Origin: Streptomyces antibioticus
GTDB lineage: Bacteria; Actinomycetota; Actinomycetes; Streptomycetales; Streptomycetaceae
NCBI RefSeq assembly: GCF_001514065.1
Contig: NZ_KQ948423.1
Location: 705,717-769,716, forward strand
Direction: 5' to 3'
DNA length: 64,000 nucleotides
Shown here: positions 12,213 through 32,242 of the stretch, piece after piece
How positions within the stretch are numbered: position 1 is the stretch's first letter
Layout of the letters: every line of letters begins with the position of its first letter
The notes under the pieces: model-generated
What the model saw: the letters and a program-made list of their open reading frames with translations, nothing else
Databases searched by the model: none
What the model was told of the DNA's origin: nothing
Program-made: the position numbers and the translations under genes

Positions 12213-13877
<1,665 letters not shown>

Positions 13878-13918
13878 GAGAAACCGTCCGGCAGCTTGAA
13901 ATCTGGCAGTGGGCAGAT

Positions 13919-13986
13919 ACACCCCATCTTGCCCGAGGTCCACCCTCGGGTGGTAACCCGTTTGGTCGGGGGGCTGTGACCTGGGG
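13919..13986. repeat. Attachment-site direct repeat, left copy
   Basis: This 68-bp sequence is repeated perfectly, in the same orientation, at 25680-25747. The first mismatching bases are at 13918/25679 and 13987/25748. The two copies bracket the integrative element. The left copy lies 42 bp upstream of the ettA start and contains a CCCGAG-GTCCACC-CTCGGG stem. No tRNA signature (GGTTCGA T-arm or CCA end) is present. Confidence 0.93.
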
Positions 13987-14103
13987 GTTTGTCGTCGGCG
14001 CCGGTAGATCGACTGTCACTTTCGGTTGTCGTCGAGTGGCCTCGGGGAGCGTCGGACGGCCCAGGGACGGCCCAGCCACGAGCGTCCGGCCCAGGCGGCC
14101 GAC

Positions 14104-14625
14104 CTACTCAGCACGTGGCGGCAGCGGAACACGGGAGCCGACCATCACCCGATGCAGGTCGACAGGACCCAACCCGTCATCACGGCCAACCTCGGCTCTG
14201 ATGTGGGCAAAGACGCAGGCAAGGCTGTACACCGACCGTGGGTCGTCAGTACTGAAGCCACCTCGCTCCTCCAACTCGGCCATAAGCGAGCCGATCTTCT
14301 CGTCCCCATACATAGCCAGTCGGAACTTGGCCGAGATCCAGAGACCCAAGGCAGCGGTCCGCTGCTCCTCCAGGACTCGACGCCTCTCTTCTGTGAGTGC
14401 TGGGGAACGTAGCGCGATCTCGCTCTGACTGTGATCGATAAGCCCCCGCCAAGCATCCTGACATGCGTCGACAAGCAGCTGAACGCTCCGCTTCCGCTCT
14501 TCAAGCCTCCTGCTCGCTCGAATCTGCAGAAGGGCAACGATCACAGCAGAGCTGAAGGTCACTGCGGCAGCAGCGACGGTGGCATTGACCACGACATCCA
14601 AGGAGTCCATCCGAACGTCATACAT
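14104..14625 (-). CDS. Small membrane-anchored protein of unknown function
   Basis: Protein of 173 residues. An N-terminal hydrophobic helix (about residues 12-33, VVVNATVAAAAVTFSSAVIVALLQI) is followed by basic residues (RASRRLEERKR), so the bulk is predicted cytosolic. The rest is helical with no motif I recognise ('YGDEKIGSLMAELEERGGFS', 'VYSLACVFAHIRAEVG'). It reads toward the left attachment repeat. A later ATG at 14610 is a possible alternative start; neither start has a strong ribosome binding site. Its place beside the HEPN-type gene at the cargo end of the element suggests an accessory function. Confidence 0.6.
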   Translation of the reverse strand: MYDVRMDSLDVVVNATVAAAAVTFSSAVIVALLQIRASRRLEERKRSVQLLVDACQDAWRGLIDHSQSEIALRSPALTEERRRVLEEQRTAALGLWISAKFRLAMYGDEKIGSLMAELEERGGFSTDDPRSVYSLACVFAHIRAEVGRDDGLGPVDLHRVMVGSRVPLPPRAE

Positions 14626-14887
14626 CGATCATGGCTCTGATGTCCCTGGAAGCAGAGAGATACGCAGGGCCTTGGCATCCGCCTTGGACGTGCAGAAGCC
14701 TCTACGAGAGTTGCAAGGGCCAGCGGCGGACTGCTGGCCGCTCGGATTGGCGTGGTCCGCTGCCGTACGCGAGGACCTCACCGCTTGGTGGCACGAGTTG
14801 CATCGCGCCGCAACAAATCACCTGCGACGACCGCGCAGCAGATGCCAGAATGAGTCTCATTCTGTCTCGCAAAACAGGGAACTAGAA

Positions 14888-16138
14888 ATGCCAGATCAAG
14901 ATGCCTCTCTTGTTCGCTTCTTTCTCACACTTCCAGAACCTTTCCCAGTTCCCGACGGGCATGTCTTCCATGGCGTGCCCGGCAAACACGACGAAACCAC
15001 TCCCCCTCAGTCGGTCGTCCATCTAAGGTTCTTGCAATCTCAAGAAACTTCTCGACGCTACGGCTCATTTTCCGCTACAGCTAGGGCTACTGGGCGCTTT
15101 AAGACCATTCCCGAAACGCGAGAGGAAAAGAAGCTCGGAGAGCTGAAAGGGCAATACACGACAGTCGTAGCCACAACGATCGACGTTAGCCGTCCACAGG
15201 AGGGGGAATGGGAATCTCCACAGGACGTGCCAGCTGAGCATGACCCGCTGAACCGGTGCCTCCTTCTAATCAGTGAGATCATCCGAACATACCGCGTCGC
15301 CTTCGGGGTCTCATGCATAGTCCCAACCTATGAGCTCCTGGACATTTCCGTGCCTTTTCAGCGGGCAAGCGAAATCGTCGTAAGCGAAGACGGGTCGGAA
15401 GGTTTCAGTTTTGACGATGCCGATTGGGGCGAGGTTGGAATACTAACGCTGGATCATTTCAACCTACCCGACATTCCGCAGAGCGGCCAGGTCAGCATTC
15501 ATCACGACCGGATGGGATACTTTGGCGATCTTCTAAATATGAAGAGCCCGCTCTTCTTTTGGCTAGAGCGCTTCATCGAGGCACGCCGCGCTTTTAGCGT
15601 AGAGGGACAGTACGGTGCCGCAGTCACTCTGAGCAACACCGCTAGCGAAGTCCTCTTGGACGCTCTTTTGGCCTCTCTGTATTGGGAGGCGGGAAAGAGC
15701 CCAGACGACGTATCAGGAATATTCACTGAAGGACGTTTGGCCAAGCGAGTGAAGACCAATTTCTCGGAGCTCCTAGGGGGCAAGTGGGTACTCGACGGTT
15801 CGGGCCCCGTAGCCGATTGGTTTCAGAGGTGTTACAAGGTACGCCACAGGGTAGTGCACGGCGGATACAGCCCATCCCGCTTGGAGGCAAAAGCCGCATT
15901 GGATTCCGTTCTGGCGCTATCGAACTTTTGCTGGGATAGACTCGCAACGAGCAGAAAGAGGTTTCCTCGAACTGCACTCATGGCCCTTTCGGAAGATGGC
16001 CTAACTCGGAGAGGAAAGTGGTGCAGCTTCATGCAGAAGTTTAGTGCCGAGGTAGCGCCAAATGAGGATTCCTGGATTCGTCAGTCACACGAATGGCGGG
16101 AGGCTGTCTATGCACATTTGATGGCATCCGAACAGTGA
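14888..16138 (+). CDS. HEPN-motif protein, candidate cargo defence gene
   Basis: Protein of 416 residues. The N-terminal ~200 residues are beta-rich with no recognised family. The C-terminal half is helical (about 215-350) and contains R319-H-R-V-V-H324-G, fitting the R-x4-6-H motif of HEPN ribonuclease domains, inside 'RCYKVRHRVVHGGYSPSRLEAKAAL'. That arrangement is like the Apea-type HEPN proteins. HEPN proteins often cleave RNA in abortive infection or toxin systems. The start at ATG 14888 has AGGGAA ahead of it; the longer frame to 14579 overlaps the divergent gene. Base composition (visibly nearer 55% GC, with AT-rich codons such as TTT, GAA, ATA) is far from the host average, which indicates recent transfer. 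Function is inferred from one motif and location. Confidence 0.65.
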   Translation: MPDQDASLVRFFLTLPEPFPVPDGHVFHGVPGKHDETTPPQSVVHLRFLQSQETSRRYGSFSATARATGRFKTIPETREEKKLGELKGQYTTVVATTIDVSRPQEGEWESPQDVPAEHDPLNRCLLLISEIIRTYRVAFGVSCIVPTYELLDISVPFQRASEIVVSEDGSEGFSFDDADWGEVGILTLDHFNLPDIPQSGQVSIHHDRMGYFGDLLNMKSPLFFWLERFIEARRAFSVEGQYGAAVTLSNTASEVLLDALLASLYWEAGKSPDDVSGIFTEGRLAKRVKTNFSELLGGKWVLDGSGPVADWFQRCYKVRHRVVHGGYSPSRLEAKAALDSVLALSNFCWDRLATSRKRFPRTALMALSEDGLTRRGKWCSFMQKFSAEVAPNEDSWIRQSHEWREAVYAHLMASEQ

Positions 16139-16623
16139 TCTATTACCATCCGGAACGCCTAATACAGGGACAGCGGGCGGCGGAGCGGCTTTGGGCTGGA
16201 GCTGCTTTGGGGCGAGTGATCATGGCCCCTTAAGCTTCCGGCGAGTCGGGCAGTCTGTGGATCTGCCCGTTAAAGCACGACGTTGGGGCCATGATCTTAG
16301 AGGCTCGCCCCAAAGTGGCTGCCTAAAGCCGTGGAGCCGACCGCCCCAGCCACAGAGGGTTTCTCCCGCTCTTTGCCCGCATGCACGCAGCGCGCCGCCG
16401 TGGCGCGGCCAGCCGGGGCGAAGACAGAGGCAGGCCGCGCCGTCGAGGCGGCGCGCGCCCGCGCCGTGCGCGGGCCTTGATGAAGTAGGGAAAGTTCTAT
16501 CCCGCTGGGATGAGGCGCTTGCCGTCATGGCTCTGTATGTGAGGGCCGTTGGCAGTCAAAGCACCTGAGGACCGGACCGCGAAGACCCAGGTCATGCGCT
16601 TCGGACCTCGTCGGGGCAACCAC
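16139..16623. other. Non-coding region of the AICE with strong inverted repeats
   Basis: About 485 bp without a supportable gene between the HEPN-type gene and the Nudix gene. It contains the compound hairpin at 16205-16315. It also has a second inverted repeat: GCGCGCCGCC at 16390-16399 pairs with GGCGGCGCGC at 16447-16456. GC content changes sharply from AT-richer on the left to very GC-rich in the middle. It is a reasonable place for a cis-acting locus (transfer or replication). Confidence 0.5.
16205..16315. repeat. Compound inverted repeat, candidate cis-acting locus
   Basis: The outer arms are CTTTGGGGCGAG (16205-16216) with CTCGCCCCAAAG (16304-16315), then GATCATGGCCCC (16218-16229) with GGGGCCATGATC (16285-16296). 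That gives 24 paired bases with a 1-nt versus 7-nt bulge. Inside sits a second stem, CGGGCAG (16247-16253) with CTGCCCG (16263-16269), around a 9-nt loop. No U-run follows, so it is not a normal terminator. It could be a transfer (clt), single-strand origin or regulatory RNA structure; the sequence alone does not decide. Confidence 0.6.
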
Positions 16624-17109
16624 CTACGCCGCTAGGTCGCCCGGCGCCTGGCCGTGTTCGAGGTAAACCGGAGCACTCTCAGCGCGGGCCTCGATCGCCG
16701 CGAGGATGCGTCGGGCCAGCCGAGGGATCGTGCGATCCGCGATCTCCTGTGGAGCGACGAACCTGATGGCCTTCAGCTCGTCCGCCTGGAGCCGGATTCC
16801 CTCCACGAGATCCGTAGGAAGCTCGCCGCCGTCGAACAGGTACAGCACCTTGTCGCCCTCGGCACCGTTGGGCGCCCAGTCGACCGCCAGCAAGCGACCC
16901 AGCGCGGGCGTAATCCCCAACTCTTCGCGCACCTCCCGGCTGGCAGCTTGCAACGGGGACTCCCCTGTTTCGACGTACCCCCCGGGAATGTCCCAGTAGT
17001 CCTTGTAGGTGGGCTCCACCATGAGGACACGGCCGTCGACATCAAAGAAGAGCGCACCCGCGGCCATGCGCGGATGCGCCATCTTCGCTTCGTGCTCGTT
17101 CGCTGCCAT
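16624..17109 (-). CDS. Nudix hydrolase (possible Pif-like transfer immunity protein)
   Basis: Protein of 161 residues with a complete Nudix box, 'GGYVETGESPLQAASREVREELG', i.e. G-x5-E-x7-REVREEL-G. It is preceded by the usual 'DYWDIPGG' and followed by 'VDWAPNGAEGDKVLYLFDGG'. Nudix enzymes cleave nucleoside diphosphates linked to another moiety. In pSAM2 a Nudix-motif protein, Pif, gives the host immunity to redundant transfer, so the same role is possible here. The evidence is position on a pSAM2-like element and the motif, not proven homology. The start is ATG 17109, 18 bp after the XRE-regulator stop, so the two form an operon. Confidence 0.85.
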   Translation of the reverse strand: MAANEHEAKMAHPRMAAGALFFDVDGRVLMVEPTYKDYWDIPGGYVETGESPLQAASREVREELGITPALGRLLAVDWAPNGAEGDKVLYLFDGGELPTDLVEGIRLQADELKAIRFVAPQEIADRTIPRLARRILAAIEARAESAPVYLEHGQAPGDLAA

Positions 17110-17127
17110 GCAGCCGAGCGTACCGAC

Positions 17128-18351
17128 CTAGACCACGTGCAGCCGATCGGCCAGCTCGGCCATGGTCCGGCTCGGCCGTCCCTTCTGGTTGCGGACCCAC
17201 GTGAGCACCAGCTCGCGGGCCAGATAGTGACTGCGCACCTGCTCAGGGGCCCAGGACTCGGCTTCAAGGATCATGCCCAACGCGTCGTCGATGCGGTTGT
17301 GCGCACTCAGTGCACGAGCGACCTCGATGTTGTGCCGAGTCCGCCGCTCCGTGGGCAAGCCGCTCGTGTCGATCCGCGGGCCCAGGTCGACAGCGACCTG
17401 CATGTCCCCTAGCTCGCCCGCCGTGGCCACGCGGTGAATGTCGACGTTGGTCGGGCCAAACGCGGTCCACATGTGGTTCGCGTCCCGGCCCAGCTGGCGA
17501 GCTGCCTGATCGGCTTCGGCCAGGAACTCGCGCACGGTCGATCGGTCATCCGCTCGGGCGCCCGCCATCGATCCTGCGAGGAAGAGCGTCCCGTAGATCG
17601 AGAGGAAGTCAGGACCAGCCCCGTCGAGACCTGGCCTGAGGTAGTCGGCTGCGTCCCCTACGAGCTGCACAGCAGCGTCGAACCGGCCCGTCGTCAGGAG
17701 GCAGTGCGCGACTGACCGGAAGAGAGATCCAGTCACCGCAGGGTTGCCGGACTGCTGCGCTGCGCCCAGTCCGCGGTCGGCCGCGATCCAGGCGAGGTCG
17801 ACTTCGCCCACCTTGCCGAGCACCATGGCGGCGCTCTGGTACGTCAGGGCCAGCAGCTCGTTGGCCTTCTCGCGCTCGGCACCCTCGTAGGCCTGCGCCG
17901 CAATGAGCGCGTCCGCCAGCAACAACGGCAGGCGCCGAGTCGCGAAGCCGTAGCGCGAGGCTTGGTAGGCGTCCATTACTTCCGTAACACTGCTGCGCAA
18001 CTCATCGAGCCGCGTTGGATCTCCCTCGGTCGGGAGTCCCAACAGAGGAGTCAGCTGGCGGTAGTTCATCAGCGCCGACCGAAGCGCCGGCACAGTGCGC
18101 TTGCCGCTGTCCTGGGTCCACTCCATGAGTGTCGGCTCGGCGAGCAGATCGCCGAGAGACACGTCGAGTGCATCGGCCAAGCTCTTGATGACCGACAGGC
18201 GGTCCAGCTGCAGGCGGTTGTTCTCAGCCTTGCTCAGCCAGTCGACCGTTCGACCGACCAGCCCAGCCAAGACTTCTTGGGACATGCCACGCCTGCGGCG
18301 GTACCAAGCGACTCGCTCACCGATCGTCAGGTTCGTCGTCATTCCTCGCAT
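17128..18351 (-). CDS. XRE-family regulator with TPR-like C-terminal domain
   Basis: Protein of 407 residues. The N-terminal helix-turn-helix (about residues 10-68) is of Cro/CI type: 'IGERVAWYRRRRGMSQEVLAGLVGRTVDWLSKAENN'. The remaining ~330 residues are helical hairpins typical of TPR-like sensor domains ('AYEGAEREKANELLALTYQSAAMVLGKVGEVDLAWIAADRG'), and it ends with 'ELVLTWVRNQ...AELADRLHVV'. Such regulators bind a peptide or partner with the TPR part. It is followed by the Nudix gene and divergent from a small ORF. The 130-bp space upstream contains CTGACA (18431-18436) and TGTCAG (18448-18453) as an operator-like inverted repeat. Start at ATG 18351 behind a GGGGGGA; ATG 18342 is the alternative. 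Confidence 0.85.
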   Translation of the reverse strand: MRGMTTNLTIGERVAWYRRRRGMSQEVLAGLVGRTVDWLSKAENNRLQLDRLSVIKSLADALDVSLGDLLAEPTLMEWTQDSGKRTVPALRSALMNYRQLTPLLGLPTEGDPTRLDELRSSVTEVMDAYQASRYGFATRRLPLLLADALIAAQAYEGAEREKANELLALTYQSAAMVLGKVGEVDLAWIAADRGLGAAQQSGNPAVTGSLFRSVAHCLLTTGRFDAAVQLVGDAADYLRPGLDGAGPDFLSIYGTLFLAGSMAGARADDRSTVREFLAEADQAARQLGRDANHMWTAFGPTNVDIHRVATAGELGDMQVAVDLGPRIDTSGLPTERRTRHNIEVARALSAHNRIDDALGMILEAESWAPEQVRSHYLARELVLTWVRNQKGRPSRTMAELADRLHVV

Positions 18352-18482
18352 GGAAAGAGCGTCCCCCCGTCCCTCGGTATGGCCCCGGAGAGTTTTTCCG
18401 GGGTGGTGAGCTGACCCGGTCTTAGCGTTGCTGACAAGCCGAGGGGCTGTCAGATCGAGAAGGCAAAGAGGGGGCTGTAGCG

Positions 18483-18677
18483 GTGCTGACCCCGGCAGAG
18501 CAACGCGAACTGATCAACCAGGTAAGGGGACTTAGTGAGGAGTTGGCAGCGGTCGCGCGTCGAGCGGAAGCGCTGGTCATCGCCCTTGCACCTGCTGTCG
18601 AACCAGGTCCTCCAGCTGATCCATCCGCTCCGCGAGACGGCGCACATCCCGACGAACCTCCGAGAGGTACTCCGTGA
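18483..18677 (+). CDS. Small hypothetical protein
   Basis: A 64-residue frame starting with GTG 18483, preceded by AGAGGGGGCTGTAGCG. The first ~40 residues (LTPAEQRELINQVRGLSEELAAVARRAEAL) form a convincing amphipathic, coiled-coil-like helix. The Pro-rich tail overlaps the 3' end of the convergent GntR gene, so only the N-terminal part shows independent coding character. Similar tiny proteins next to the GntR regulator occur on other elements of this type, from memory. Moderate confidence. Confidence 0.42.
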   Translation: MLTPAEQRELINQVRGLSEELAAVARRAEALVIALAPAVEPGPPADPSAPRDGAHPDEPPRGTP

Positions 18678-18948
18678 TCTGCTCAAACTCAGGGCTCCGC
18701 TTGGTGGGCGTGGTCTCCCCCGGCAACGCTGCGAAGCTTCCTTTGCCCTGGTGGGAGATCGCGTAGCCGTCCTCACGGAGGCGCGAGATTGCCTGTCGGG
18801 CGACCGTTCGCGACACCGTGTGCTGCGCCATGAGCTCTGCCTCTGACGGCAGCTTCTCACCGGGTGCAAGCTCTCCGTCTCGGATCCGGCGCTTGAACTC
18901 GTCAGCGATCTGCAAGTACGCGGCGCGCCCGGCGGTGAAGTCGGCCAT
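18577..18948 (-). CDS. GntR-family transcriptional repressor (KorSA-like)
   Basis: Protein of 123 residues. The N-terminal winged helix is of GntR type: 'YLQIADEFKRRIRDGELAPGEKLPSEAELMAQHTVSRTVARQAISRLREDGYAISHQGKGSF' (about residues 10-75). A short C-terminal coiled coil follows ('FEQITEYLSEVRRDVRRLAERMDQLEDLVRQQ'), with no large effector domain. KorSA of pSAM2 is the same kind of protein and represses element replication and transfer. The start was set at ATG 18948, which has AGAGGGG just upstream; ATG 18960 lacks a ribosome binding site. It lies divergent from the conjugation operon, with the palindrome at 19057-19071 between them. Confidence 0.87.
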   Translation of the reverse strand: MADFTAGRAAYLQIADEFKRRIRDGELAPGEKLPSEAELMAQHTVSRTVARQAISRLREDGYAISHQGKGSFAALPGETTPTKRSPEFEQITEYLSEVRRDVRRLAERMDQLEDLVRQQVQGR

Positions 18949-19056
18949 AGCCCCTCTCATGGGTTGTCGTACCTAGTGCAGCACATCGCGCCGACACCCG
19001 TCGAGACAGCCACTTGACACACCAAGTAGTACAGGTTCATTCTCTATCTCAAGATG

Positions 19057-19071
19057 ACGTACTAAGTACGT
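19057..19071. promoter_or_regulatory. Palindromic operator candidate upstream of the transfer operon
   Basis: ACGTAC-TAA-GTACGT is a perfect 6-3-6 palindrome, 27 bp before the first transfer-operon gene and in the spacer shared with the divergent gntR gene. Related TAGTAC (19027-19032) and CGTACCTAG (18968-18976) motifs occur in the same spacer, with a TTGACA -35-like box at 19014-19019. GntR proteins bind short palindromes of this kind, so autoregulation and repression of the operon is inferred. Confidence 0.55.
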
Positions 19072-19098
19072 TAGGCTGGTCGATCCAAGGAGCTCGTC

Positions 19099-19455
19099 AT
19101 GCGTTCGATCCCCGTCAACACCTCCGACGCGACCGTGATGGTCGCCAAGTCCCCGCAGCCCAAGGTCAAGGACCGCCGTACCGGCGAGATCGCCACCGAC
19201 GCCGAGACCGGCGCGAAGATGATGACCGTCGACGTGATGTTCGCCGCCAACGACGAGGTGGAGATCCTCTCCATCACCGTCCCCGAGACCGGGATCTCCG
19301 GCGAGCTGGCCATGGGCACCCCGGTGGCGCTGACCGGTCTGATCGCCCGGCCGTGGGAGAACGAGTTCAACGGGCAGAAGCGGCACGGCATTGCCTTCCG
19401 CGCGGTCGCCGTCACCTCGCTCGCCGCCGCTGCCGCGAAGCCGAAGGCTGCCTGA
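19099..19455 (+). CDS. SCO3933-family regulatory protein
   Basis: Protein of 118 residues starting at ATG 19099 behind AAGGAG. It is a beta-rich small protein ('VMVAKSPQPKVKDRRTGEI', 'MTVDVMFAANDEVEILSITVPE', 'LAMGTPVALTGLIARPWE') ending with an Ala/Lys tail. I recognise it as the small protein that precedes traSA in streptomycete AICEs, known as the SCO3933 family. The strand pattern and GTPVALTGL segment resemble an OB fold, so nucleic-acid binding is possible; this is inference. The traSA start follows 2 nt after the stop, so they are coupled. Confidence 0.8.
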   Translation: MRSIPVNTSDATVMVAKSPQPKVKDRRTGEIATDAETGAKMMTVDVMFAANDEVEILSITVPETGISGELAMGTPVALTGLIARPWENEFNGQKRHGIAFRAVAVTSLAAAAAKPKAA

Positions 19456-19457
19456 CC

Positions 19458-20813
19458 GTGAACGCCTTTATGGTCGCTCTGGTGCTGGTCGTCGTCACTG
19501 CGGGTCTCCTGCGGTGGCGGCGCCCCGCCTGGTACTGGATGACCTTCGGCGTCGTCCTCGCCACGGTGCGCGTCCTGGTCCGGTACGGCTCGGTCATGGA
19601 CGCCTGCGGGCTGACGGTCCCGCCCTCGCGCTGGCGCCTGGCTCTGGCCCGGATCGCCAACCGTCCCGTGCCGGAGTCCCGGGCGCCGGGCATACGGCGG
19701 CTGCGTCCAACTCGTACCGGCCTGGTCCTGCGGCTCAAGCTGCGCCCCGGACAGGACGCCTTCGACATCGCCGCCGCCTCCGACCGGTTACGGCACTCCT
19801 TCTCGATGTACGGCGTGACCTCGCGCGAACTCCGCTCCGGCGTCGTCGAGTTGCGGATGACCGGCTACGACGTCCTCAAGCAAGTGCGCATGCCCGCCGA
19901 CCCCGACACCCGCCCGATGCGCGTCCCGGTCGCCCTGCGTGAAGACGGCACGATCCACTACCGCGACTACCGGGCGATCCCTCACGCCCTCACCCTCGGC
20001 GCCACCGAGTCCGGCAAGTCCGTCTACCAACGCAACCTGGTCGCCGGGCTGGCGCCCATGGACGTCGCCCTCGTCGGCATCGACTGCAAGCAGGGCGTCG
20101 AACTCTTCCCGCTGGCCCGCCGGTTCTCCGCCCTCGCCGACAACCCCGACACCGCCGCCGACCTCCTCGACGCCCTCGTCGCGCACATGGAGGACGTCTA
20201 CCAGCTCATCCGCGCTGAACAGCGCATCACCTCCGACGTCCCGGATGCCGACATCGCCGCCGACATCTGGGCCCTGCCCGCCGACCTGCGCCCGACCCCG
20301 ATCGTCATCCTGGTCGACGAGGTCGCCGAACTCGCCTTGTACGCCAACAAGGAAGAGGAGAAGCGCCGGGACCGGATCATCACCGCCCTCGCCCGGCTCG
20401 CCCAGCTCGGCCGTGCCGCCGGGATCTACCTGGAGATCTGCGGGCAGCGCTTCGGCTCCGAACTCGGCAAGGGCATCACGATGCTCCGCGCCCAGCTCAC
20501 CGGCCGTACCGCGCACCGCGTCAACGACGAATCCAGCGCCAACATGGCCTTCGGCGACATCTCCCCGGACGCCGTCCTCGCCGCCATCCAGATCCCTGCC
20601 GACATGCGCGGGCTCGCCATCGCGGGCGACTCCACCGGAGGCTGGCACCGCATCCGCGCCCCGCACACCACGCTGCGCAAGGCCGTCAACGTCTGCAACC
20701 GGTACGCCGACCTGACCCCGGACGTGCCCGCCCTGGCGCCCTTCCGGCCCGCGCTCGGCATCCCGCGGTCGATGACCGCCCCGGCCGTCGAGTCCGCCCC
20801 GGCCGCCGCCTGA
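19458..20813 (+). CDS. traSA: TraSA-like FtsK/SpoIIIE DNA translocase
   Basis: Protein of 451 residues starting with GTG 19458. The N-terminus has two hydrophobic stretches (about residues 2-18 and 25-41). The ATPase core carries Walker A 'GATESGKS' at 181-188 and Walker B 'IVILVDEVAEL' near 281-291, followed by 'IYLEICGQRFGSELG'. This is the single-protein machine that moves double-stranded DNA between mycelia in Streptomyces conjugation. Codon 111 (19788-19790) is TTA, a leucine codon read only by the bldA tRNA, which is rare in streptomycete housekeeping genes. The C-terminus is Pro/Ala-rich and presumably includes the DNA-recognition region. First large gene of the transfer operon. Confidence 0.92.
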   Translation: MNAFMVALVLVVVTAGLLRWRRPAWYWMTFGVVLATVRVLVRYGSVMDACGLTVPPSRWRLALARIANRPVPESRAPGIRRLRPTRTGLVLRLKLRPGQDAFDIAAASDRLRHSFSMYGVTSRELRSGVVELRMTGYDVLKQVRMPADPDTRPMRVPVALREDGTIHYRDYRAIPHALTLGATESGKSVYQRNLVAGLAPMDVALVGIDCKQGVELFPLARRFSALADNPDTAADLLDALVAHMEDVYQLIRAEQRITSDVPDADIAADIWALPADLRPTPIVILVDEVAELALYANKEEEKRRDRIITALARLAQLGRAAGIYLEICGQRFGSELGKGITMLRAQLTGRTAHRVNDESSANMAFGDISPDAVLAAIQIPADMRGLAIAGDSTGGWHRIRAPHTTLRKAVNVCNRYADLTPDVPALAPFRPALGIPRSMTAPAVESAPAAA

Positions 20814-20897
20814 TCCCTCCCGCTCCACGGTCGGCGCGACCGCACCCGCGCCAAGTCCCTACCCGACCCATGCCTGAACCGAGGGAGTCAACCCGCC

Positions 20898-21104
20898 ATG
20901 TGCCCGCCCTGTGAGGACTTCACCCGCACCGTCGGGATGCTGGCCGACCTGGCCCTGTACGCCCACACCGACGACGCCGACGAGGGGTTCATCGGCATCG
21001 TCGGGCCGTGCCTGGCCGCGTCCCTGCCGGAGCCGCCGCCCGGCCTCTTCCCCCCCGGCTACGACCCCAACGACGGCCCGGCCTACCCCGGCGGGGACTC
21101 CTGA
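20898..21104 (+). CDS. Small hypothetical protein of the transfer operon
   Basis: Protein of 68 residues, acidic and Pro-rich (starts MCPPCEDFTRTVGMLADLALYAH, ends GYDPNDGPAYPGGDS). ATG 20898 follows GAGGGAG at good spacing. Its stop overlaps the start of the next gene (TGATG at 21102-21106), which supports it as a real operon member. No domain recognised; the N-terminal CPPC could bind metal or form a disulfide. Confidence 0.65.
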   Translation: MCPPCEDFTRTVGMLADLALYAHTDDADEGFIGIVGPCLAASLPEPPPGLFPPGYDPNDGPAYPGGDS

Positions 21105-21784
21105 TGGCCCGCCCCGCCCTCCGCGTGGACGCCGTCCTCGTCCAGGCCATCATCGCCGGGGCCCTCTCCTTCGCCCACCTGCACGACCTTGCCGCCGCAG
21201 CGGGACAGGACGGCTGGAAAGCCTGGGCCTACCCGGTCTCCGTCGACCTGCTGCTGGTCGCGGCCTGGCGCCGCCTGCGCAACGACGGCCCGTCCCGGCT
21301 GGCCTGGTGCTGGTTCGTCATCGCCCTGGTCGCCTCACTCGGCGCCAACATCGCCACCGCCGGATTCCTCGACCTGGCCAACCCGCCCGCCCTGCTCCGC
21401 CTCGGCGTCGCCGGATGGCCCGCTCTCGCCTTCCTCGGCGGCACGCTCCTTGCCCACGCCTCGACCTCGGCCAGCGACCGGGTGCCGGTTCCGCCGACAC
21501 CCGCAACCGCACCCGAAGTCGAGCCCGATCCCACCCCCGACCCGACCCCGGAATCGGTCCCGGAAGCAGCCTCGGTCACCGCACCCGAACCGACCCCGGC
21601 CCTACCCGCCGCCGAACCGGCTCCGTCCATGCCGCCCGTCCCGGCCGCCCTGGTCGACCACGCGCGCAAGGTCGCCGACGACCACCGGTCCCGGACCGGC
21701 TCCCCGATCGACAACGACACCCTGCGCGCCCGCCTCGGCGTCCCGCCCCAGCTCGCCGCCGCCATCGCCTCCCAACTCGCCTGA
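21104..21784 (+). CDS. Spread protein SpdB-like, DUF2637 membrane protein
   Basis: Protein of 226 residues. Four predicted membrane helices lie in the first ~125 residues (VLVQAIIAGALSFAHL; AYPVSVDLLLVAAW; AWCWFVIALVASLGANIATA; GWPALAFLGGTLLAHA), matching the DUF2637 family of plasmid spread proteins. An acidic Pro/Thr-rich linker and a small C-terminal helical domain ('HARKVADDHRSRTGSPIDNDTLRARLGVP') resembling a helix-turn-helix follow. Spd proteins help transferred DNA move through septal cross-walls of the recipient mycelium. Start ATG 21104 overlaps the previous stop. Confidence 0.85.
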   Translation: MARPALRVDAVLVQAIIAGALSFAHLHDLAAAAGQDGWKAWAYPVSVDLLLVAAWRRLRNDGPSRLAWCWFVIALVASLGANIATAGFLDLANPPALLRLGVAGWPALAFLGGTLLAHASTSASDRVPVPPTPATAPEVEPDPTPDPTPESVPEAASVTAPEPTPALPAAEPAPSMPPVPAALVDHARKVADDHRSRTGSPIDNDTLRARLGVPPQLAAAIASQLA

Positions 21785-21805
21785 CCAGAAGGGAGAACCA
21801 CCGCC

Positions 21806-21997
21806 ATGCCCGCCAACGAGCACTTCCACTCGCTGATGCAGATCGGCCCCGTGCAGATCGGCACCCACCGAGACCGCAACGGCAGGACCGCCCACGCCGC
21901 CGTGTGCACCGCCGACCGCTGCGGCTGGTCCGCCGACTACACGAGCCGGAGCGCCGCCCAGCTCGCCGCCCGCACCCACCGTTGCCGCGTCCGCTAG
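21806..21997 (+). CDS. Mobile element transfer protein (SpdA-type small protein)
   Basis: Protein of 63 residues, ATG 21806 with AAGGGAG. The sequence 'GPVQIGTHRDRNGRTAHAAVC...CGWSADYTSRSAAQLAARTHRC' is the hallmark of the tiny transfer protein found between spdB and spdD genes in pSAM2-like elements. Cys residues at about 34, 39 and 61 plus His near 59 could form a zinc site. Biochemical role unknown. Confidence 0.8.
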   Translation: MPANEHFHSLMQIGPVQIGTHRDRNGRTAHAAVCTADRCGWSADYTSRSAAQLAARTHRCRVR

Positions 21998-22009
21998 GAG
22001 GCCACCGCC

Positions 22010-22165
22010 ATGGACGTCCCCCTCTGGTTCGCCCTGCTCGTCGTCGGCTACCTCGGCGTCAAGCTCATCCGCCCGCCCTGGTGGCTCATCGCCGTCCTCC
22101 TGCTCGGCGGCTACCTCCTCGCCGACAGCCTGCTCGCCCCCGCCATCAACGCCGCCGTCAAGTAG
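22010..22165 (+). CDS. Small two-helix membrane protein (Spd-type)
   Basis: Protein of 51 residues, ATG 22010 behind GGAGG with good spacing, 12 bp after the preceding stop. It is almost wholly hydrophobic: 'LWFALLVVGYLGVKLI', then a short loop RPPWW, then 'LIAVLLLGGYLLADSLL'. The start, ribosome binding site and operon position fit the small spread proteins of AICEs, which are often only 50-60 residues. Confidence 0.72.
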   Translation: MDVPLWFALLVVGYLGVKLIRPPWWLIAVLLLGGYLLADSLLAPAINAAVK

Positions 22166-22188
22166 CCCACAACTGAAGGGAGTTCACC

Positions 22189-22503
22189 ATGTTCCGCCCG
22201 AAGATCCCGACCATGCCGACGCCGACCGGCGTCACCACACCGCCGACCGTCATCGAGCCGACCGCCGTGGTCCCGCACACCCCGACCACGCCGATGTCCC
22301 CGGCCCCGGTCCCCGCCCGTCCCACGGTCCAGCTCACCCCCGGCACCGTGCTCGCCCTCGTCGGCGGCGGTACCGCCGTGGTCCTGGTCGTCGGCGCTGT
22401 CCTGGTCTCCATGCTGCTGGCGGTCGCCGTCACCGGCATGTCCGTGGCCGTGGTCGCGGTCGTCCTGCGCTCCTTGCTCGCCTCCGAGGCGAAGCGACGC
22501 TGA
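22189..22503 (+). CDS. Spread protein SpdD-like
   Basis: Protein of 104 residues starting at ATG 22189 after AAGGGAG. A Pro/Thr-rich N-terminal half (residues 1-50) is followed by one or two tightly packed hydrophobic segments 'VLALVGGGTAVVLVVGAVLVSMLLAVAVTGMSVAVVAVVL' and a basic end (EAKRR). That composition is characteristic of SpdD of Streptomyces plasmids, an intramycelial spread protein. It lies within the block traSA-spd-rep, all on one strand. Confidence 0.78.
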   Translation: MFRPKIPTMPTPTGVTTPPTVIEPTAVVPHTPTTPMSPAPVPARPTVQLTPGTVLALVGGGTAVVLVVGAVLVSMLLAVAVTGMSVAVVAVVLRSLLASEAKRR

Positions 22504-22592
22504 CCGGCCCCCGGAACGGCCTCAACCGCCAAGTCTCGTCCGCTCCGGGCGCCGTCCCTGTCCGATCCACTGAACCGGAAGGAACCTCCATC

Positions 22593-22787
22593 ATGACCGG
22601 CCTCACCTCGGCCCCGCAGTCCCTCACACGGGTCTGCCCGGACTGCGACGGCTTCGCCTCCGCCGCCGTCACCCTCGGCGGCCGTGACCGGCGCGGGCAC
22701 CTGCGCACCATCACCGCGCACTGCCCGGCTTGCAACGGCCTCGGCGTCACCCGCACCCGCCGCACGCGGGAGGGCGCCCGTGCCTGA
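22593..22787 (+). CDS. Small zinc-finger protein upstream of rep
   Basis: Protein of 64 residues, ATG 22593 behind GGAAGGAA. It contains two CxxC knuckles, 'CPDCDG' (about 15-20) and 'CPACNGLG' (about 44-51), spaced like a DnaJ-type zinc-binding hairpin, and a basic C-terminus (RTRRTREGARA). It overlaps the rep start by 8 nt (GTGCCTGA), so the two are translationally coupled. Probably an accessory to replication; no direct evidence. Confidence 0.75.
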   Translation: MTGLTSAPQSLTRVCPDCDGFASAAVTLGGRDRRGHLRTITAHCPACNGLGVTRTRRTREGARA

Positions 22788-24153
22788 CACGCTGCTCGAC
22801 CCGGCCACCCTCGGCGACCTGCTGAGGGTGGCTTCGGCCTCCGCCTACGACCGCTGGGAAGAGCAGATTCGCCGCACCGGCGGCTGCTCCGACCCGATCC
22901 ACCTGACCGGCTGGACTCTCCACAAGGACAAGGTCACCGGCGAGACCCTGCACCACTACTCCACCGAGAACGAACCCGGCGGACGCCTCCGCCTCGCCTG
23001 CGGCAACCGCCGCGCCTCCCGCTGCCCGTCCTGCGCCTGGACCTACGCGGGCGACACGTACCACCTCATCCGCGCGGGGCTGGCCGGAGACGACAACCGC
23101 GACATCCCCTCCACCGTCCGCGACCACCCCCGCGTCTTCGCCACCCTCACCGCCCCGTCCTTCGGCCCGGTCCACAACCGCCCCGACAAAGGCACCTGCC
23201 GCTGCGGCACCCGCCACCCGGCCGACGACCCCGCCCTCGGCACGGCCCTCGACCCGACGACGTACGACTACGCGGGCGCCGTTCTCTTCAACAACCACGC
23301 GGGCGACCTCTGGCAGCGCTTCACCACGCGCCTGCGCCGCGAGATCGCCGCCCGCGCCGGACTCACCCGCAGCGAACTCCCCGACCACGCCCGCGTCTCC
23401 TACGGCAAGGTCGCCGAGTTCCAGAAGCGCGGTGCCCTGCACTTCCACGCCGTGATCCGCATCGACGGCCCGGACGGCCCCGACACACCCCCACCCGCCT
23501 GGGCCACCACCGACCTCCTCACCGACGCCATCCAGGCCGCGGCCGCGCACTCCTACACCTCGGTCTCGGTCCCGGCCGCTGACGACCACCCCGCCCGCAC
23601 CTTCCGCTGGGGCACCCAACTCGACGTCCGCCCCGTCAAGGCCTTCGGAGACGGCTCCGACATCACCGAACAGGCCGTCGCCTCCTACGTCGCCAAGTAC
23701 GCCACCAAAGCCGCCGAGAACACCGGCACTCTCGACCGCCGCATCGGCGAACTCTCCGAACTCGACCCCCATCAGGTCCCCGACCACACCCGCCGCCTGA
23801 TCGAAGCCTGCAAGACCCTCGACCCGCTCTACCCGGACCGCCGCCTCTGGGCCTGGGCTCACATGCTCGGCTTCCGAGGCCACTTCAGCTCCAAGTCCCG
23901 GCGCTACTCGACGACCCTCGGCGCCCTCCGCCAAGCCCGCGCCGACTACCGCGCCGCGCAGGAACGCGAGTCCCTCGGCCTCGACGACCGCGAGCCGGAC
24001 ACCGTCCTTGTCCTCACCGACTGGCAGTACGCCGGACACGGCCACACCCCCGGCGAATCCGTCCTCGCCGCCACCATCGCCCGCAGCCTCCAACTCGGCC
24101 GCGAGACAGCCCGCGAAGAACTCCGCGCCCTGGCCGACGAAAGGGGGTGGTGA
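22780..24153 (+). CDS. repSA: RepSA-like rolling-circle replication initiator
   Basis: Protein of 457 residues, close to RepSA of pSAM2. GTG 22780 overlaps the zinc-finger gene. Features: Cys-rich region (CGNRRASRCPSC near residues 68-85; CRCG near 140), a His-hydrophobic-His metal motif 'LHFHAVIRID' with H221 and H223, and 'ASYVAKYATKAAE' near residue 305 carrying the candidate nicking tyrosines. It would nick the double-strand origin and start rolling-circle replication of the excised circle, required for conjugative transfer of this element class. The excisionase gene begins 1 nt after its stop. Confidence 0.9.
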   Translation: MPDTLLDPATLGDLLRVASASAYDRWEEQIRRTGGCSDPIHLTGWTLHKDKVTGETLHHYSTENEPGGRLRLACGNRRASRCPSCAWTYAGDTYHLIRAGLAGDDNRDIPSTVRDHPRVFATLTAPSFGPVHNRPDKGTCRCGTRHPADDPALGTALDPTTYDYAGAVLFNNHAGDLWQRFTTRLRREIAARAGLTRSELPDHARVSYGKVAEFQKRGALHFHAVIRIDGPDGPDTPPPAWATTDLLTDAIQAAAAHSYTSVSVPAADDHPARTFRWGTQLDVRPVKAFGDGSDITEQAVASYVAKYATKAAENTGTLDRRIGELSELDPHQVPDHTRRLIEACKTLDPLYPDRRLWAWAHMLGFRGHFSSKSRRYSTTLGALRQARADYRAAQERESLGLDDREPDTVLVLTDWQYAGHGHTPGESVLAATIARSLQLGRETAREELRALADERGW

Positions 24154-24154
24154 C

Positions 24155-24352
24155 ATGACGGCACTCCCGAACAGGTTCCTGACCCCGGAAGACCTAGTGG
24201 AGATGTTCGAGCTGCCCAGCGTCGAGACGGTCTACCAGTGGCGCCGTAAGCGCACCGGTCCCCGCGGCTTCCGTGTCGGCCGGCACCTCCGCTTCGACCC
24301 GGAGGACGTACGTGCCTGGGTGGACTCCCAGTTGAAGGGAGCTGCTGCCTGA
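24155..24352 (+). CDS. xis: Excisionase / MerR-like helix-turn-helix protein
   Basis: Protein of 65 residues: 'NRFLTPEDLVEMFELPSVETVYQWRRKRTGPRGFRVGRHLRFDPEDVRAWVDSQ' is the classic winged-helix excisionase fold of the HTH_17 family. It directs the integrase toward excision. It starts at ATG 24155 one base after the rep stop (TGA-C-ATG) and its stop overlaps the int start (ATGA), so rep, xis and int are one translational unit as in pSAM2. Confidence 0.9.
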   Translation: MTALPNRFLTPEDLVEMFELPSVETVYQWRRKRTGPRGFRVGRHLRFDPEDVRAWVDSQLKGAAA

Positions 24353-25614
24353 TGGCCGGACACGTCCAAGACCGCTGGTACAGGACCGAACCGGGCCCGG
24401 ACGGCAGGCCCCGCCGGGTCAAGACCGACCGCCACGGCATGGGCATGCGCTACCGCGCCCGCTACATCGGGCCGGACGGCACCGAGAAGTCCAAGAGCTT
24501 CCCGGACAAGCAGAAGCGCTTGGCCGACACCTGGCTCACCAACATCGAAGCCGACATGGCCCGAGGCCAGTACATCGACCCGAAGGCGGCCCGCGTCACC
24601 TTCCGTGAGTACGCCGAACGCTGGCTCGCCGCCCTCACCATCGACCTCACCAGCCGTGCTGCCGTGGAGGGGCGGTTGCGCCTTCACGCGTTGCCGTACC
24701 TCGGCTCCCGCCCCATCGGGTCGTTCCAGCCGGAGCACATCCGCGACTGGAACCGCCAGCTCGAAGACGCCGTGGCGTCGGCACAGTACCGGCGCCTCAT
24801 CTTCGACGCGGTCTCCTCGGTGCTCAACGCTGCCGTAGATGACCGCCTACTGGCCTCGAACCCCTGCCGGGCCCGATCGGTCAAGGCGCCTCGTCCCGCG
24901 CCGACACGCGTCCATCCGTGGTCCGCTGAGCGCGTGTTCGGCGTACGGGCCGGACTGCCCGACCGCTACCAAGCCATGGTGGACGTCGGCGCTGGGTGCG
25001 GTCTCCGACAGGGCGAGATCCTCGGACTCGCCGTCGACAACATCGGAGACCTCGGCTGGCTCTACGTCCGCCAACAGGTCAAGAAGGTGCGCGGGACGCT
25101 CGTCTTCGCCCCGCCCAAGCGAGGCAAGCTCCGTGACGTCCCCCTCGACCCCGAGGTCTCGGCGGCCCTGGCCGAGCACATGAAGCGGTTCCCTCCGGTC
25201 GAGGTGACGTTGCCGTGGCTCCGGCCGGACGGCCCGAAGGTGACACACCGTCTCGTGTTCACGAGCGGCATCGGCGCCGCCATCTGGAGCCAGGGCTTCA
25301 ACGATCAGGCGTGGAAGCCTGCGTTGGCGTCCGCCGGAGTCATCCCCGTCCCGGAGAAGGGCCAGCGCTACGCCCCGGCCCGCGAACACGGCATGCACGC
25401 CCTACGGCACTTCTACGCCTCGGTCCTCCTGGACGCCGGGGAGAACATCAAGGCGCTGAGCCTCTACCTCGGTCACAGCGATCCGGGGTTCACGCTCCGC
25501 GTCTACACGCACCTCATGCCGTCCAGCGAAACCCGGACCCGGAAAGCCATCTCCGCGATGTACCGGGCCGCCGGTCGCGCTCACGACGGCCCAGAGACGG
25601 CCCAGGCTGCCTGA
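24352..25614 (+). CDS. int: Tyrosine-type site-specific integrase
   Basis: Protein of 420 residues. The N-terminal arm-binding and SAM-like domain (about 50-180) is followed by the catalytic domain with the full set: Arg219 in 'CGLRQGEILGL', H349-x-x-R352 in 'HALRHFYAS', His375 in 'LGHSD' and the nucleophile Tyr385 in 'RVYTH'. All residues are present, so it should be active. It recombines attP with the chromosomal site, here the 68-bp sequence upstream of ettA. It sits next to the right repeat, 65 bp from its stop, the normal arrangement for AICEs. A GCCCCTCA hairpin follows the stop. Confidence 0.95.
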   Translation: MAGHVQDRWYRTEPGPDGRPRRVKTDRHGMGMRYRARYIGPDGTEKSKSFPDKQKRLADTWLTNIEADMARGQYIDPKAARVTFREYAERWLAALTIDLTSRAAVEGRLRLHALPYLGSRPIGSFQPEHIRDWNRQLEDAVASAQYRRLIFDAVSSVLNAAVDDRLLASNPCRARSVKAPRPAPTRVHPWSAERVFGVRAGLPDRYQAMVDVGAGCGLRQGEILGLAVDNIGDLGWLYVRQQVKKVRGTLVFAPPKRGKLRDVPLDPEVSAALAEHMKRFPPVEVTLPWLRPDGPKVTHRLVFTSGIGAAIWSQGFNDQAWKPALASAGVIPVPEKGQRYAPAREHGMHALRHFYASVLLDAGENIKALSLYLGHSDPGFTLRVYTHLMPSSETRTRKAISAMYRAAGRAHDGPETAQAA

Positions 25615-25618
25615 CACG

Positions 25619-25653
25619 GCCCCTCATCGGCGGGAAACCTGCTGGTGAGGGGC
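25619..25653 (+). terminator. Hairpin terminator after int
   Basis: GCCCCTCA (25619-25626) pairs with TGAGGGGC (25646-25653) around a 19-nt loop and is followed by TGTTTC. It lies just after the integrase stop, before the right attachment repeat. The weak U-run makes efficiency uncertain. Confidence 0.6.
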
Positions 25654-25679
25654 TGTTTCATGCCCTCATCCGGTAAGTA

Positions 25680-25747
25680 ACACCCCATCTTGCCCGAGGT
25701 CCACCCTCGGGTGGTAACCCGTTTGGTCGGGGGGCTGTGACCTGGGG
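25680..25747. repeat. Attachment-site direct repeat, right copy
   Basis: Perfect 68-bp copy of 13919-13986 in the same orientation, located 65 bp after the integrase gene. It marks the right junction of the AICE with the chromosome; the surface-protein gene ends 29 bp further on. Confidence 0.93.
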
Positions 25748-25776
25748 TTTCTCTCGGCTCTCGCCTCCGGCCCCGG

Positions 25777-27198
25777 TCAGTCCTGCGTCTTCCGCCGCTG
25801 CACCAGCACCAGCGCCGCCCCGCCGATCACCACCAGCGCCACCGCCACGCCCGTGATCACCGGCGTCACGCTGGACGTGCCGGTCTCGGCGAGGTTGGTG
25901 CCGGCCGAGGTGCCGCCCACCGTGAGCGGGCTCGGCTCGCTGAGGGTCTGGGTGGTGTCGCCGCCGGTCTCGTTGCCCTGGGTCTGGCAGTCGAGGACGC
26001 CGGTGAAGCGCTTGTCCAGCCCGGCGGGGCCGGTGATCGTGAAGTCGTACGCCTGGTCCTCCTGGAGCGGGATCGTCACCGTCCGTGACGCGCCCGCCGG
26101 AATGGTGTGCTCCAGGCCGAGCAGCTCGTAGGTGAACGGCTGGTCGCCCTCGTTGGCCGCGGTGATGTCGATGCCGCCCTCGGCGCAGTTCTTAGCCGCG
26201 GAGAGGGCCGGTATCGCACCCTTCTCGGCCCAGGCCGCGCTCGCCGTCGCGGACACCGTCGACTCGCTGGAGCCGGCCAGGATCTGCGTCTGGCTCCTGC
26301 TCTCGGAGGTGAAGGCACGACCCACCGGCACGGTCGTGGAGGCCTGCACGGCCACCTCGGCCGACCCGGCCGCCGCGCCCTCGGGAATCTCGAAGAAGAT
26401 CTGGCTGCCGTTCTTCGCGGACGTGAGGTCCATGCCGTTCTTGCCGACGATCCGTACCCCGCTGGTGACGGCGTCCGCCGGAGGCGTCACCGTCACACTG
26501 TCCGCGTCGGTGTGCACCGTCACCGGCCCGAGGAGCCCGCCGGAGCGGCCGGAGACCGCGGCCGGCGAGAGCGTCAGCGAGGCCGAGGGCTCCGCCAGCG
26601 CGCGGGCGCTGTCATGGAGGTAGTCGGCGAGCTTCTCGGCCTGCGGGTCGGCGGCGTCCACGTCCGCGCCGTCCGAGTAGCGCCAGATGGCCACCTGCGT
26701 GCCGGCCGCCGCGTCCTGCTCGGTGAGGCCGCCGCCGATGCCCGCCTTCGCGGCGAGCGCCGCGAGGTCGTTCACCTGCGGATAGGAGTTCTGCAGGATC
26801 CAACGGATCTTGCCGGCGTCCCGGTTGGTGCCCAGCGAGGTGCCGCTCCAGGGCGTCTCGTGGTACTTGGCGTCCCGCTGGGTCGGGTTGTAGAGGTCGA
26901 CGCAGTAGGTCTGGAGCGTGCCGCCGCCTTCGACGGACATCTCGAACAGGCCCGCCGAGACCTCCATGTCCCCGGAGTCGTCGTGTATGACCGCCGTGCC
27001 GTACGTCTTCAGGCCGCCTATGGTCGCGGTCGCCCCGCCCTGGATCTGCCCCGTACCGTCGCCGGCGGCGGCCGTGCCGGCACCGGCCAGCACACCGGCC
27101 GCGACGAGCCCGGACATCAGCGTCCCGGCGATGAGCCGGGCCACCCCTCGTCCGCGAGCCGACCGCCGCGTGCTGGGCGCAGAGAGCGAAGAAAGCAC
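25777..27198 (-). CDS. Thioester-domain (TQXA) surface protein with LAETG sorting signal
   Basis: Protein of 473 residues, GTG 27198 behind AAGGGGAA. Signal peptide with basic start and hydrophobic core ends near AGTAAAG (about residue 46). The N-terminal domain (about 50-205) holds 'LQTYCVDLYNPT' and 'AAGTQVAIWRYSDG', the Cys and TQ-x-A parts of a thioester-forming adhesion domain. Ig-like middle domains follow. The C-terminus is LAETG, then a membrane helix (TPVITGVAVALVVIGGAALVLV) and RRK, a sortase signal of the LAXTG type used by class E sortases. It would be covalently attached to peptidoglycan and could bond covalently to an external partner. In the uninterrupted chromosome it precedes ettA. 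Confidence 0.85.
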   Translation of the reverse strand: MLSSLSAPSTRRSARGRGVARLIAGTLMSGLVAAGVLAGAGTAAAGDGTGQIQGGATATIGGLKTYGTAVIHDDSGDMEVSAGLFEMSVEGGGTLQTYCVDLYNPTQRDAKYHETPWSGTSLGTNRDAGKIRWILQNSYPQVNDLAALAAKAGIGGGLTEQDAAAGTQVAIWRYSDGADVDAADPQAEKLADYLHDSARALAEPSASLTLSPAAVSGRSGGLLGPVTVHTDADSVTVTPPADAVTSGVRIVGKNGMDLTSAKNGSQIFFEIPEGAAAGSAEVAVQASTTVPVGRAFTSESRSQTQILAGSSESTVSATASAAWAEKGAIPALSAAKNCAEGGIDITAANEGDQPFTYELLGLEHTIPAGASRTVTIPLQEDQAYDFTITGPAGLDKRFTGVLDCQTQGNETGGDTTQTLSEPSPLTVGGTSAGTNLAETGTSSVTPVITGVAVALVVIGGAALVLVQRRKTQD

Positions 27199-32160: not shown

Positions 32161-32233
32161 GCCCCCGTAGCTCAGTGGATAGAGCAGGCGCCTTCTAAGC
32201 GCTTGGCCGCAGGTTCGAGTCCTGCCGGGGGCG
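32161..32233 (+). tRNA. tRNA-Arg (anticodon UCU)
   Basis: The full cloverleaf can be drawn. Acceptor GCCCCCG/CGGGGGC (32161-32167 and 32226-32232), D stem GCTC/GAGC, anticodon stem GGCGC/GCGCT with loop CTTCTAA giving TCT at 32194-32196, and T arm GCAGG-TTCGAGT-CCTGC. Discriminator base G at 32233; CCA is not fully encoded (CGCC follows). It reads AGA codons, which are rare at this GC content. No integration is seen here, although tRNA 3' ends are the usual AICE targets. Confidence 0.96.
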
Positions 32234-32242
32234 CCCACGCTC

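Follow-up and report, generated by a model that had tools for sequence, protein, structure and literature searches.

Gene content and boundaries of the element

The stretch analysed here, a 64-kb window (64,000 nucleotides) of Streptomyces antibioticus (RefSeq assembly GCF_001514065.1, contig NZ_KQ948423.1, positions 705,717 to 769,716), carries a mobile element at positions 13919–25747, directly upstream of ettA, the gene for an ABC-F energy-dependent translational throttle protein. The element is bounded by a direct repeat of 71 nt, in which 70 of 71 positions agree and the first 68 are exact, with a spacing of 11,761 bp between the copies at 13919–13986 and 25680–25747. An exact match of 68 bases cannot arise by chance. 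A first-pass annotation had described exact 68-bp repeats at this spacing around a complete pSAM2-type actinomycete integrative and conjugative element (AICE), and both the repeat comparison and the gene families agree with it. The genes and boundary features are as follows.

12213–13877, minus strand: ettA, ABC-F energy-dependent translational throttle protein, TTG start at 13877; two NCBIfam EttA models match at 928 and 901 bits, both over cut-off
13919–13986, minus strand: attL, the ettA-side repeat copy, element-derived right of the core under the proposed crossover
14104–14625, minus strand: cargo open reading frame (ORF), no family match
14579–16138, plus strand: second cargo ORF without a match to any family; its GC content is below that of the remaining element
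16624–17109, minus strand: NUDIX protein, Pif-like candidate, weak PADLOC match PDC-S07
17128–18351, minus strand: XRE-type helix-turn-helix (HTH)/TPR-like regulator
18577–18960, minus strand: GntR regulator
19014–20813, plus strand: FtsK/SpoIIIE-type Tra ORF (PF01580, 2e-42), true start probably later
21104–21784, plus strand: DUF2637 membrane protein, candidate spread gene
21806–21997, plus strand: SpdB-type mobile element transfer (spread) protein (SpdB, 5e-30)
22684–24153, plus strand: repSA ORF, replication initiator (NCBIfam equivalog NF041486, 876 bits against a cut-off of 700), true start probably later
24155–24352, plus strand: xis-like gene for a small HTH protein (HTH_17), Xis candidate
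24352–25614, plus strand: int, tyrosine integrase
25612–25660, plus strand: strong hairpin past the int stop codon (19-bp stem, z -6.4), likely int terminator
25680–25747, minus strand: attR, the int-side repeat copy, chromosomal right of the core under the proposed crossover
25777–27198, minus strand: gene for a thioester-domain (TED) surface protein, usually found next to ettA in the chromosome, on the far side of attB

Judged by these families, the element is a pSAM2-type AICE with the full set of expected modules. Like pSAM2, it combines RepSA, an FtsK-type Tra, SpdB, a GntR regulator, a NUDIX protein, an Xis candidate and a tyrosine integrase, and int stands beside one attachment site. 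The GntR regulator is presumably in a KorSA-like position, and we take the NUDIX protein to be comparable with Pif. The two cargo ORFs at the left end (14104–16138) matched no family in Pfam, NCBIfam or PADLOC. No type IV secretion system gene was found among the ORFs tested, no search being aimed at such genes. The right repeat begins 65 bp past the end of the int stop codon, and a scan for T-runs at the hairpin in this interval found no consensus terminator.

The first-pass annotation had also stated that the repeat has no tRNA features and lies 42 bp upstream of ettA. The former stood, while the latter is to be corrected to 41 bp (13878–13918), counted from a start codon that was placed from an alignment of 29 loci. 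ARAGORN found a single tRNA in the window, at 32161–32235, and Rfam at gathering thresholds over the window returned this tRNA and nothing on the repeats, so that neither program placed a tRNA or other RNA gene over the site. Relaxed Rfam scans of 13800–14150 and 25600–25850 gave six matches, all far under the family gathering scores; five of them lie off the repeats, and the sixth, SECIS_3, overlaps with the right copy at 15 bits, its gathering score being 63.

The proposed recombination core and the host palindrome

To a first approximation the 68-bp repeat marks the two ends of the element, and a comparison of attL with attR at nine occupied sites delimits a much shorter core. The exact run common to the two ends varies from 15 to 68 bp across these sites, and 15 bp, ACACCCCATCTTGCC, are common to all nine pairs. 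Identity begins at ACACCCC in the nine pairs, one base earlier in G238 (G and L numbers are our handles for genomes and loci). The 68 bp are accordingly the length of the repeat in the window and not the recombination core, the identity being so long here because the host and element copies are near-identical in this strain group. The 15-bp core agrees at 135 of 135 positions, the 18-bp spacer that follows it at 142 of 162 (88%), a 10-bp box at positions 34–43 at 85 of 90 (94%), positions 44–58 at 88 of 135 (65%), the GACCTGGG motif at 52 of 72 and positions 67–80 at 60 of 126. Beyond position 80 the agreement is 101 of 270, a value also obtained for the ettA side. The nine pairs are those with a complete integrase; the set omits G003, G119, G239, G087, G267 and the middle copy in G157, which have none, as well as G082 and G293, which were not aligned, and G228, G123 and G221, for which the two ends were not both available. 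Among the omitted pairs, G003 has 130 exact bases in common, G119 has 48 and G239 only 3.

Immediately before the core, the half-site on the ettA side is GGGCAGAT in all nine pairs, and the half-site on the integrase side is related but variable, for example GGCAAGTA. We infer that the site is a standard tyrosine-recombinase site, in which a 7-bp overlap, ACACCCC, lies between half-sites GGCAGAT and ATCTTGCC. The terms core and arm are used here in their customary sense for integrase sites. The corresponding features in the window are the following.

13911–13933, strand not assigned: proposed core at attL, with half-site GGGCAGAT, overlap ACACCCC (13919–13925) and half-site ATCTTGCC
25672–25694, strand not assigned: proposed core at attR, with element half-site GGTAAGTA, overlap ACACCCC (25680–25686) and half-site ATCTTGCC
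13952–13961, minus strand: conserved box of the GGAAACSCGT type (here GGTAACCCGT), possible -35 region of an ettA promoter
14056–14074, plus strand: two ACGGCCCA repeats 11 bp apart, putative integrase arm sites, left arm
25586–25604, plus strand: two ACGGCCCA repeats 11 bp apart, putative integrase arm sites, right arm (int end)

The paired ACGGCCCA repeats at the two ends of the element account for four of only eight in the window. In the wider genome sample described below, such repeats are also overrepresented in the 400 bp that adjoin the ettA block on its far side: 20 of 60 loci have them, compared with 67 of 2,460 control windows. The GACCTGGG motif is likewise seen at most of the sites where no element was detected, and may be either of host origin or a relic.

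The attL core belongs to a sequence that is widespread in the genus. A 120-bp query covering the ettA start and the DNA upstream of it matched in 293 of 295 Streptomyces genomes, and in all 288 of those with a completeness of 90% or more and a contamination of 5% or less; the weakest matches align over the last 24–25 bp only, at the ettA start. A 22-bp palindrome, GGCAAGATGGGGTGTATCTGCC in the sense of ettA, with arms GGCAAGAT-N7-ATCTGCC, was found with at most three mismatches in 216 of the 295 genomes (213 of the 288), and a reversed control in 3. Over the bacterial family, 50 of 121 genomes have the palindrome; they belong to 4 of 17 genera, one of which is Streptomyces (20 of its 28 rows), and the control gave no match. 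In all 30 loci fetched from three other genera, ettA lies 27 to 54 bp downstream of the palindrome, and in these loci (L327–L356) GGCAAGATGGGGTGTATCTGCC is near-invariant. Because it is present across Streptomyces and stands directly ahead of ettA in other genera, the palindrome is a feature of the host that is not confined to element-bearing genomes. A second ettA leader, with the palindrome and the first few codons, was seen about 5 Mb from ettA in one genome (L364, G012:C1:8075500-8078500), where it runs into an unrelated frame; this is a truncated duplicate.

For a closer view of conservation we used 60 genomes, mainly assemblies of few contigs taken from the best-matching rows together with near relatives of the window, chosen regardless of whether the site is occupied. 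Conservation figures from this sample are biased upward because it was drawn from the best-matching rows, as a comparison with the 216 of 295 for the palindrome indicates. Of the 60 genomes, 54 have the 15-bp core ACACCCCATCTTGCC without mismatch, and 52 have the exact succession of half-site, overlap and half-site of the attL core. The most conserved positions include the core, its left half-site and the GGAAAC box. In 59 of 60 the box stands at one fixed offset from the core, and the distance from core to ettA, in the measure used, varies from 34 to 41 bp. The fixed spacing of box and core suggests a promoter, and we infer that the block upstream of the gene may be that of ettA itself, with the palindrome as a candidate for the regulation of EttA. 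A TED homologue lies within about 20 kb upstream of ettA, in either orientation, in 55 of the 60 genomes. In 35 it is no more than 2.1 kb from the core, and the site there is uninterrupted or nearly so; the first-pass annotation had proposed to look for a single, uninterrupted copy in other Streptomyces.

A folded leader RNA was considered as the cause of the conservation and rejected, since the RNA upstream of ettA folds no better than shuffles; covariation was unusable because the short hairpin is nearly invariant. The palindromic nature of the core could nevertheless be taken as the mark of a degenerate RNA gene or tRNA remnant in the 68-bp repeat, and so of a tRNA site in disguise. The ARAGORN and Rfam results given above, the position of the palindrome ahead of ettA in other genera and the absence of folding beyond that of shuffles all argue against this explanation, and we consider it very improbable.

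Recurrence of the site and targets of the integrase family

Relatives of the integrase at E ≤1e-60 occur in 181 of the 295 Streptomyces genomes. Among the matches listed for these genomes, all nine integrases of at least 85% identity have the ettA core directly after int; eight of these cores were placed by sequence and the ninth (G024 contig C7, a short contig) by coordinates. For 23 of the best 80 relatives in named genomes the core is no more than 300 bp from int, and 20 of the 21 integrases of at least 85% identity have it 64–66 bp past int. The two sets of genomes overlap, so that these counts are not independent. The closest named relative among the best 80, from Streptomyces sp. GKU 895, is 99% identical and has the same location, and two close relatives from a third draw (L357 and L358) carry the ettA core too. 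In four of the 60 sampled genomes a nearly full-length integrase relative is followed by a second core; in a further one (L142) the integrase is cut by the end of the region, and two more have integrase fragments. Loci picked for second core copies or for integrases were left out of every prevalence count. Taken together, these results indicate that the site upstream of ettA is a genuine, recurrent and specific target, and the earlier description of an AICE at a non-tRNA site directly upstream of ettA, conserved in the genus, holds with the 120-bp and palindrome counts given above.

Other loci show the site in altered form. Decayed elements, with second cores, integrase fragments or both and no full integrase, were seen at the ettA site in L153 (G003), L156 (G119), L122 (G267), L157 (G239), L161 (G087), L121 (G164) and L155 (G201). 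In G221 (L101 and L162) a core, an integrase and the thioester gene are found in inverted orientation some 30 kb away from ettA, together with two RepSA-like genes, an arrangement that looks like an inversion between two elements. Lone copies of the ettA block, 85–91% identical over 71–76 bp, lie far from ettA in L163 (G031) and L164 (G064), with no integrase, Rep or Tra within the stretch fetched; they may be rearranged att remnants or secondary-site insertions.

Other integrases of the family, 47–70% identical, end at other sites, several of which could be named by Pfam on the flanking frame. The genes met at their 3' ends are glutamine-synthetase genes of two types, nusG, a phosphoglycerate-mutase (gpm)-type gene and a MurA-like gene, together with a PMT-type gene (a weak Pfam match under the curated cut-off) and a "HEAGH" gene with no Pfam match; further targets are a region adjoining cdsA and a groES promoter. 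Targets were named from frames with known C-terminal peptides and Pfam; naming them by the longest open frame was dropped as unreliable in GC-rich DNA. Fifteen longer stretches were searched for a far-end second copy of the int-side sequence, which is clear in L229, L231, L233, L236, L237, L239 and L242 and short in L230 (14 bp) and L232 (19–21 bp). The groES-promoter element of L229 (G093, positions 8081 and 18991, reverse orientation) has 20 bp common to both ends, TGGCACTCTAGTTGACTGAG, which comprise one arm and the spacer of an operator that resembles the controlling inverted repeat of chaperone expression (CIRCE), with a TTGACT -35-like hexamer; this is one element seen at both ends. We take the groES-promoter repeat to be the CIRCE operator.

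In a tree of 92 integrase rows (91 different), 21 site changes suffice for 11 labels, against a mean of 56 for shuffled labels, and none of 200 shuffles reaches 21. The labels are incomplete, since 31 of the 92 rows carry no motif-assigned site and were counted as one label of their own. The 16 ettA rows (15 distinct genes) form one group, with a Shimodaira-Hasegawa-like approximate likelihood ratio test (SH-aLRT) value of 85. The target site thus follows the clade in this AICE integrase family. Among the 30 best integrase loci, a few of them incomplete, the sole tRNA lies about 1.4 kb from int (L047), and a T-arm-like motif within 350 bp of int was found in one of the 92 integrase rows (L177), two rows being shorter than 350 bp; a 3' tRNA fragment could evade ARAGORN. 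The first-pass annotation had presented the ettA site as an exception to tRNA use within its family. This contrast fails, since protein-gene sites are used by further clades of this integrase family, and AICEs at non-tRNA sites are reported in the available text of two papers (PMC3218068, PMC9513070).

Proposed mechanism and consequence for ettA

The account that we consider highly probable is that a pSAM2-type AICE uses its integrase to recombine attP with the conserved host palindrome upstream of ettA, so that the upstream half of the ettA region is then supplied by the element. The integrase would bind two imperfect inverted half-sites, GGCAGAT and ATCTTGCC, with strand exchange inside the 7-bp overlap ACACCCC, and the paired ACGGCCCA arm sites at both ends of the element would assist it. 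A crossover within the overlap would leave the left half-site and the leader chromosomal, and attL beyond the overlap would come from the element. Past the core, the element holds a diverged version of about 43 bp of the DNA that precedes ettA, with the box that has a fixed spacing in the host. In the integrated state, ettA would keep its 41-bp leader, the core and a functional-looking upstream half now contributed by the element; with Xis, the element, which may still be mobile, would excise and restore attB. Owing to the diverged copy of about 43 bp in the arm of the element, the stretch upstream of ettA would be restored and not broken. This strategy seems comparable to that of tRNA-targeting elements that supply the tRNA 3' end, here applied to the upstream region of a gene. 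The first-pass annotation had expected each integration or excision to rebuild the ettA leader; the 41-bp leader is untouched, and in the window the ettA 5' region shows no change over about 109 bp before the start codon.

Several observations weigh against this account. The palindrome is not universal, as none was found at three mismatches in 79 of the 295 Streptomyces genomes or in 71 of the 121 genomes of the bacterial family, and 13 of the 17 genera have none at this threshold; G247, one of the genomes with no match, has a palindrome with the overlap one base shorter, a form also present in three of the 29 aligned ettA loci. A sigma-70 consensus scan of the site gave no promoter match, and for this reason the term ettA promoter rests on conservation and fixed spacing; the upstream RNA, as mentioned, folds no better than shuffles. 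The 21st integrase of at least 85% identity in the named genomes, that of S. monashensis (L255), is split by other DNA from a perfect core about 860 bp on. The other target genes were assigned mostly from the int-side flank alone, and in 6 of the 15 longer stretches (L234, L235, L238, L240, L241 and L243) there is no convincing far-end copy, the match being of at most 13 bases and at chance level. Support for a single ettA clade is moderate (the SH-aLRT value is not starred). Finally, the diverged copy could reflect inherited similarity rather than selected function.

This last point leads to the alternative of an ordinary AICE insertion at a fixed intergenic site, unrelated to the expression of ettA, in which the palindrome is a conserved and safe target and the likeness of attP mere ancestry. 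Such an insertion would fit the form of the attL/attR likeness, a short block that decays outward, and the use of 3' ends of other housekeeping genes by relatives, and no link from the element to ettA transcription has been measured. It accounts less well for the box at positions 34–43, which is kept at 94% between the element and chromosomal halves against 65% at positions 44–58 (the spacer is also kept, at 88%), and for the spacing of box and core, constant in 59 of the 60 genomes although ettA lies at differing distances. We regard it as a possible explanation, though not the probable one.

The first-pass annotation had further suggested that the target promoter, here that of ettA, lets the element sense the state of translation or energy, a proposal on which no evidence bears and which we judge highly unlikely. 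Position speaks for it, in that a copy of the ettA-upstream block stands at each end of the element. However, the copy at attR is directed toward the 3' end of int, from which the hairpin with the 19-bp stem separates it, and gives no obvious sensor, clades of the same family occupy glutamine-synthetase, nusG, gpm-type and groES sites, and no regulator of the element is linked to the site.

Recombination of attP with the host palindrome, as proposed above, can be compared with published systems. In the available text of Ghinet et al. 2011 (PMC3218068), nearly all AICEs with tyrosine integrases insert at tRNA 3' ends, except the whole pSLS subfamily, and pSAM2 targets the 3' end of a tRNA gene. 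Unlike pSAM2, the window element targets DNA upstream of ettA, and it resembles the pSLS subfamily in its non-tRNA site; this likeness is one of description, as the pSLS sites are not named in that text. Choufa et al. 2022 (PMC9513070) counted 36 tRNA, 14 protein-gene and 1 intergenic insertions of AICEs in one Streptomyces population. The window element is like the protein-gene and intergenic ones in its non-tRNA insertion; rlmN is named in the available text, and an ettA site is not. Streptococcal integrative and conjugative elements (ICEs) at the 5' ends of rbgA, ftsK and ebfC are likewise found at the start of housekeeping genes (Ambroset et al. 2016, PMC4701971). Some of them keep 15–64 bp upstream of the start codon and others replace promoter-bearing sequence, whereas the window core is a host palindrome 41 bp ahead of the start codon and the element brings a matching upstream copy. 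TnGBS, which inserts upstream of -35 boxes, also lies beside promoters, but it has a DDE transposase and duplicated targets without sequence similarity (PMC4701971), and the window element has a tyrosine integrase. The SXT/R391 ICEs insert with a tyrosine integrase at the 5' end of prfC, a translation-factor gene (PMC2791158, PMC4489591); the window element is unrelated to them, has other conjugation machinery and lies upstream of its gene and not at the 5' end itself. Among the top-ranked papers listed in literature searches, none describes in its title or abstract an AICE inserted at ettA or at a groES operator; supplements were not covered, and we do not claim that such a report is absent from print.

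Since AICEs at non-tRNA sites are of a known kind, the interest lies in the host palindrome, the copy of the ettA-upstream DNA in the element and the second promoter target at groES. A broader idea, which we hold to be speculative and rather doubtful, is that some integrase clades took over host regulatory palindromes in promoters as their cores (the putative operator or leader element of ettA, and CIRCE at groESL). The copy in the element would keep ettA running, and repeated insertion and decay would leave promoter halves derived from the element upstream of ettA in numerous species, so that the control of a translation factor is gradually rewritten. The precisely defined 23-bp att core upstream of ettA in most Streptomyces examined may serve as a site for integration vectors. 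For the biology of these elements, the results point to one AICE integrase family spread over a series of housekeeping protein genes, and to a case in which an element would insert beside the upstream control region of a gene without breaking it.

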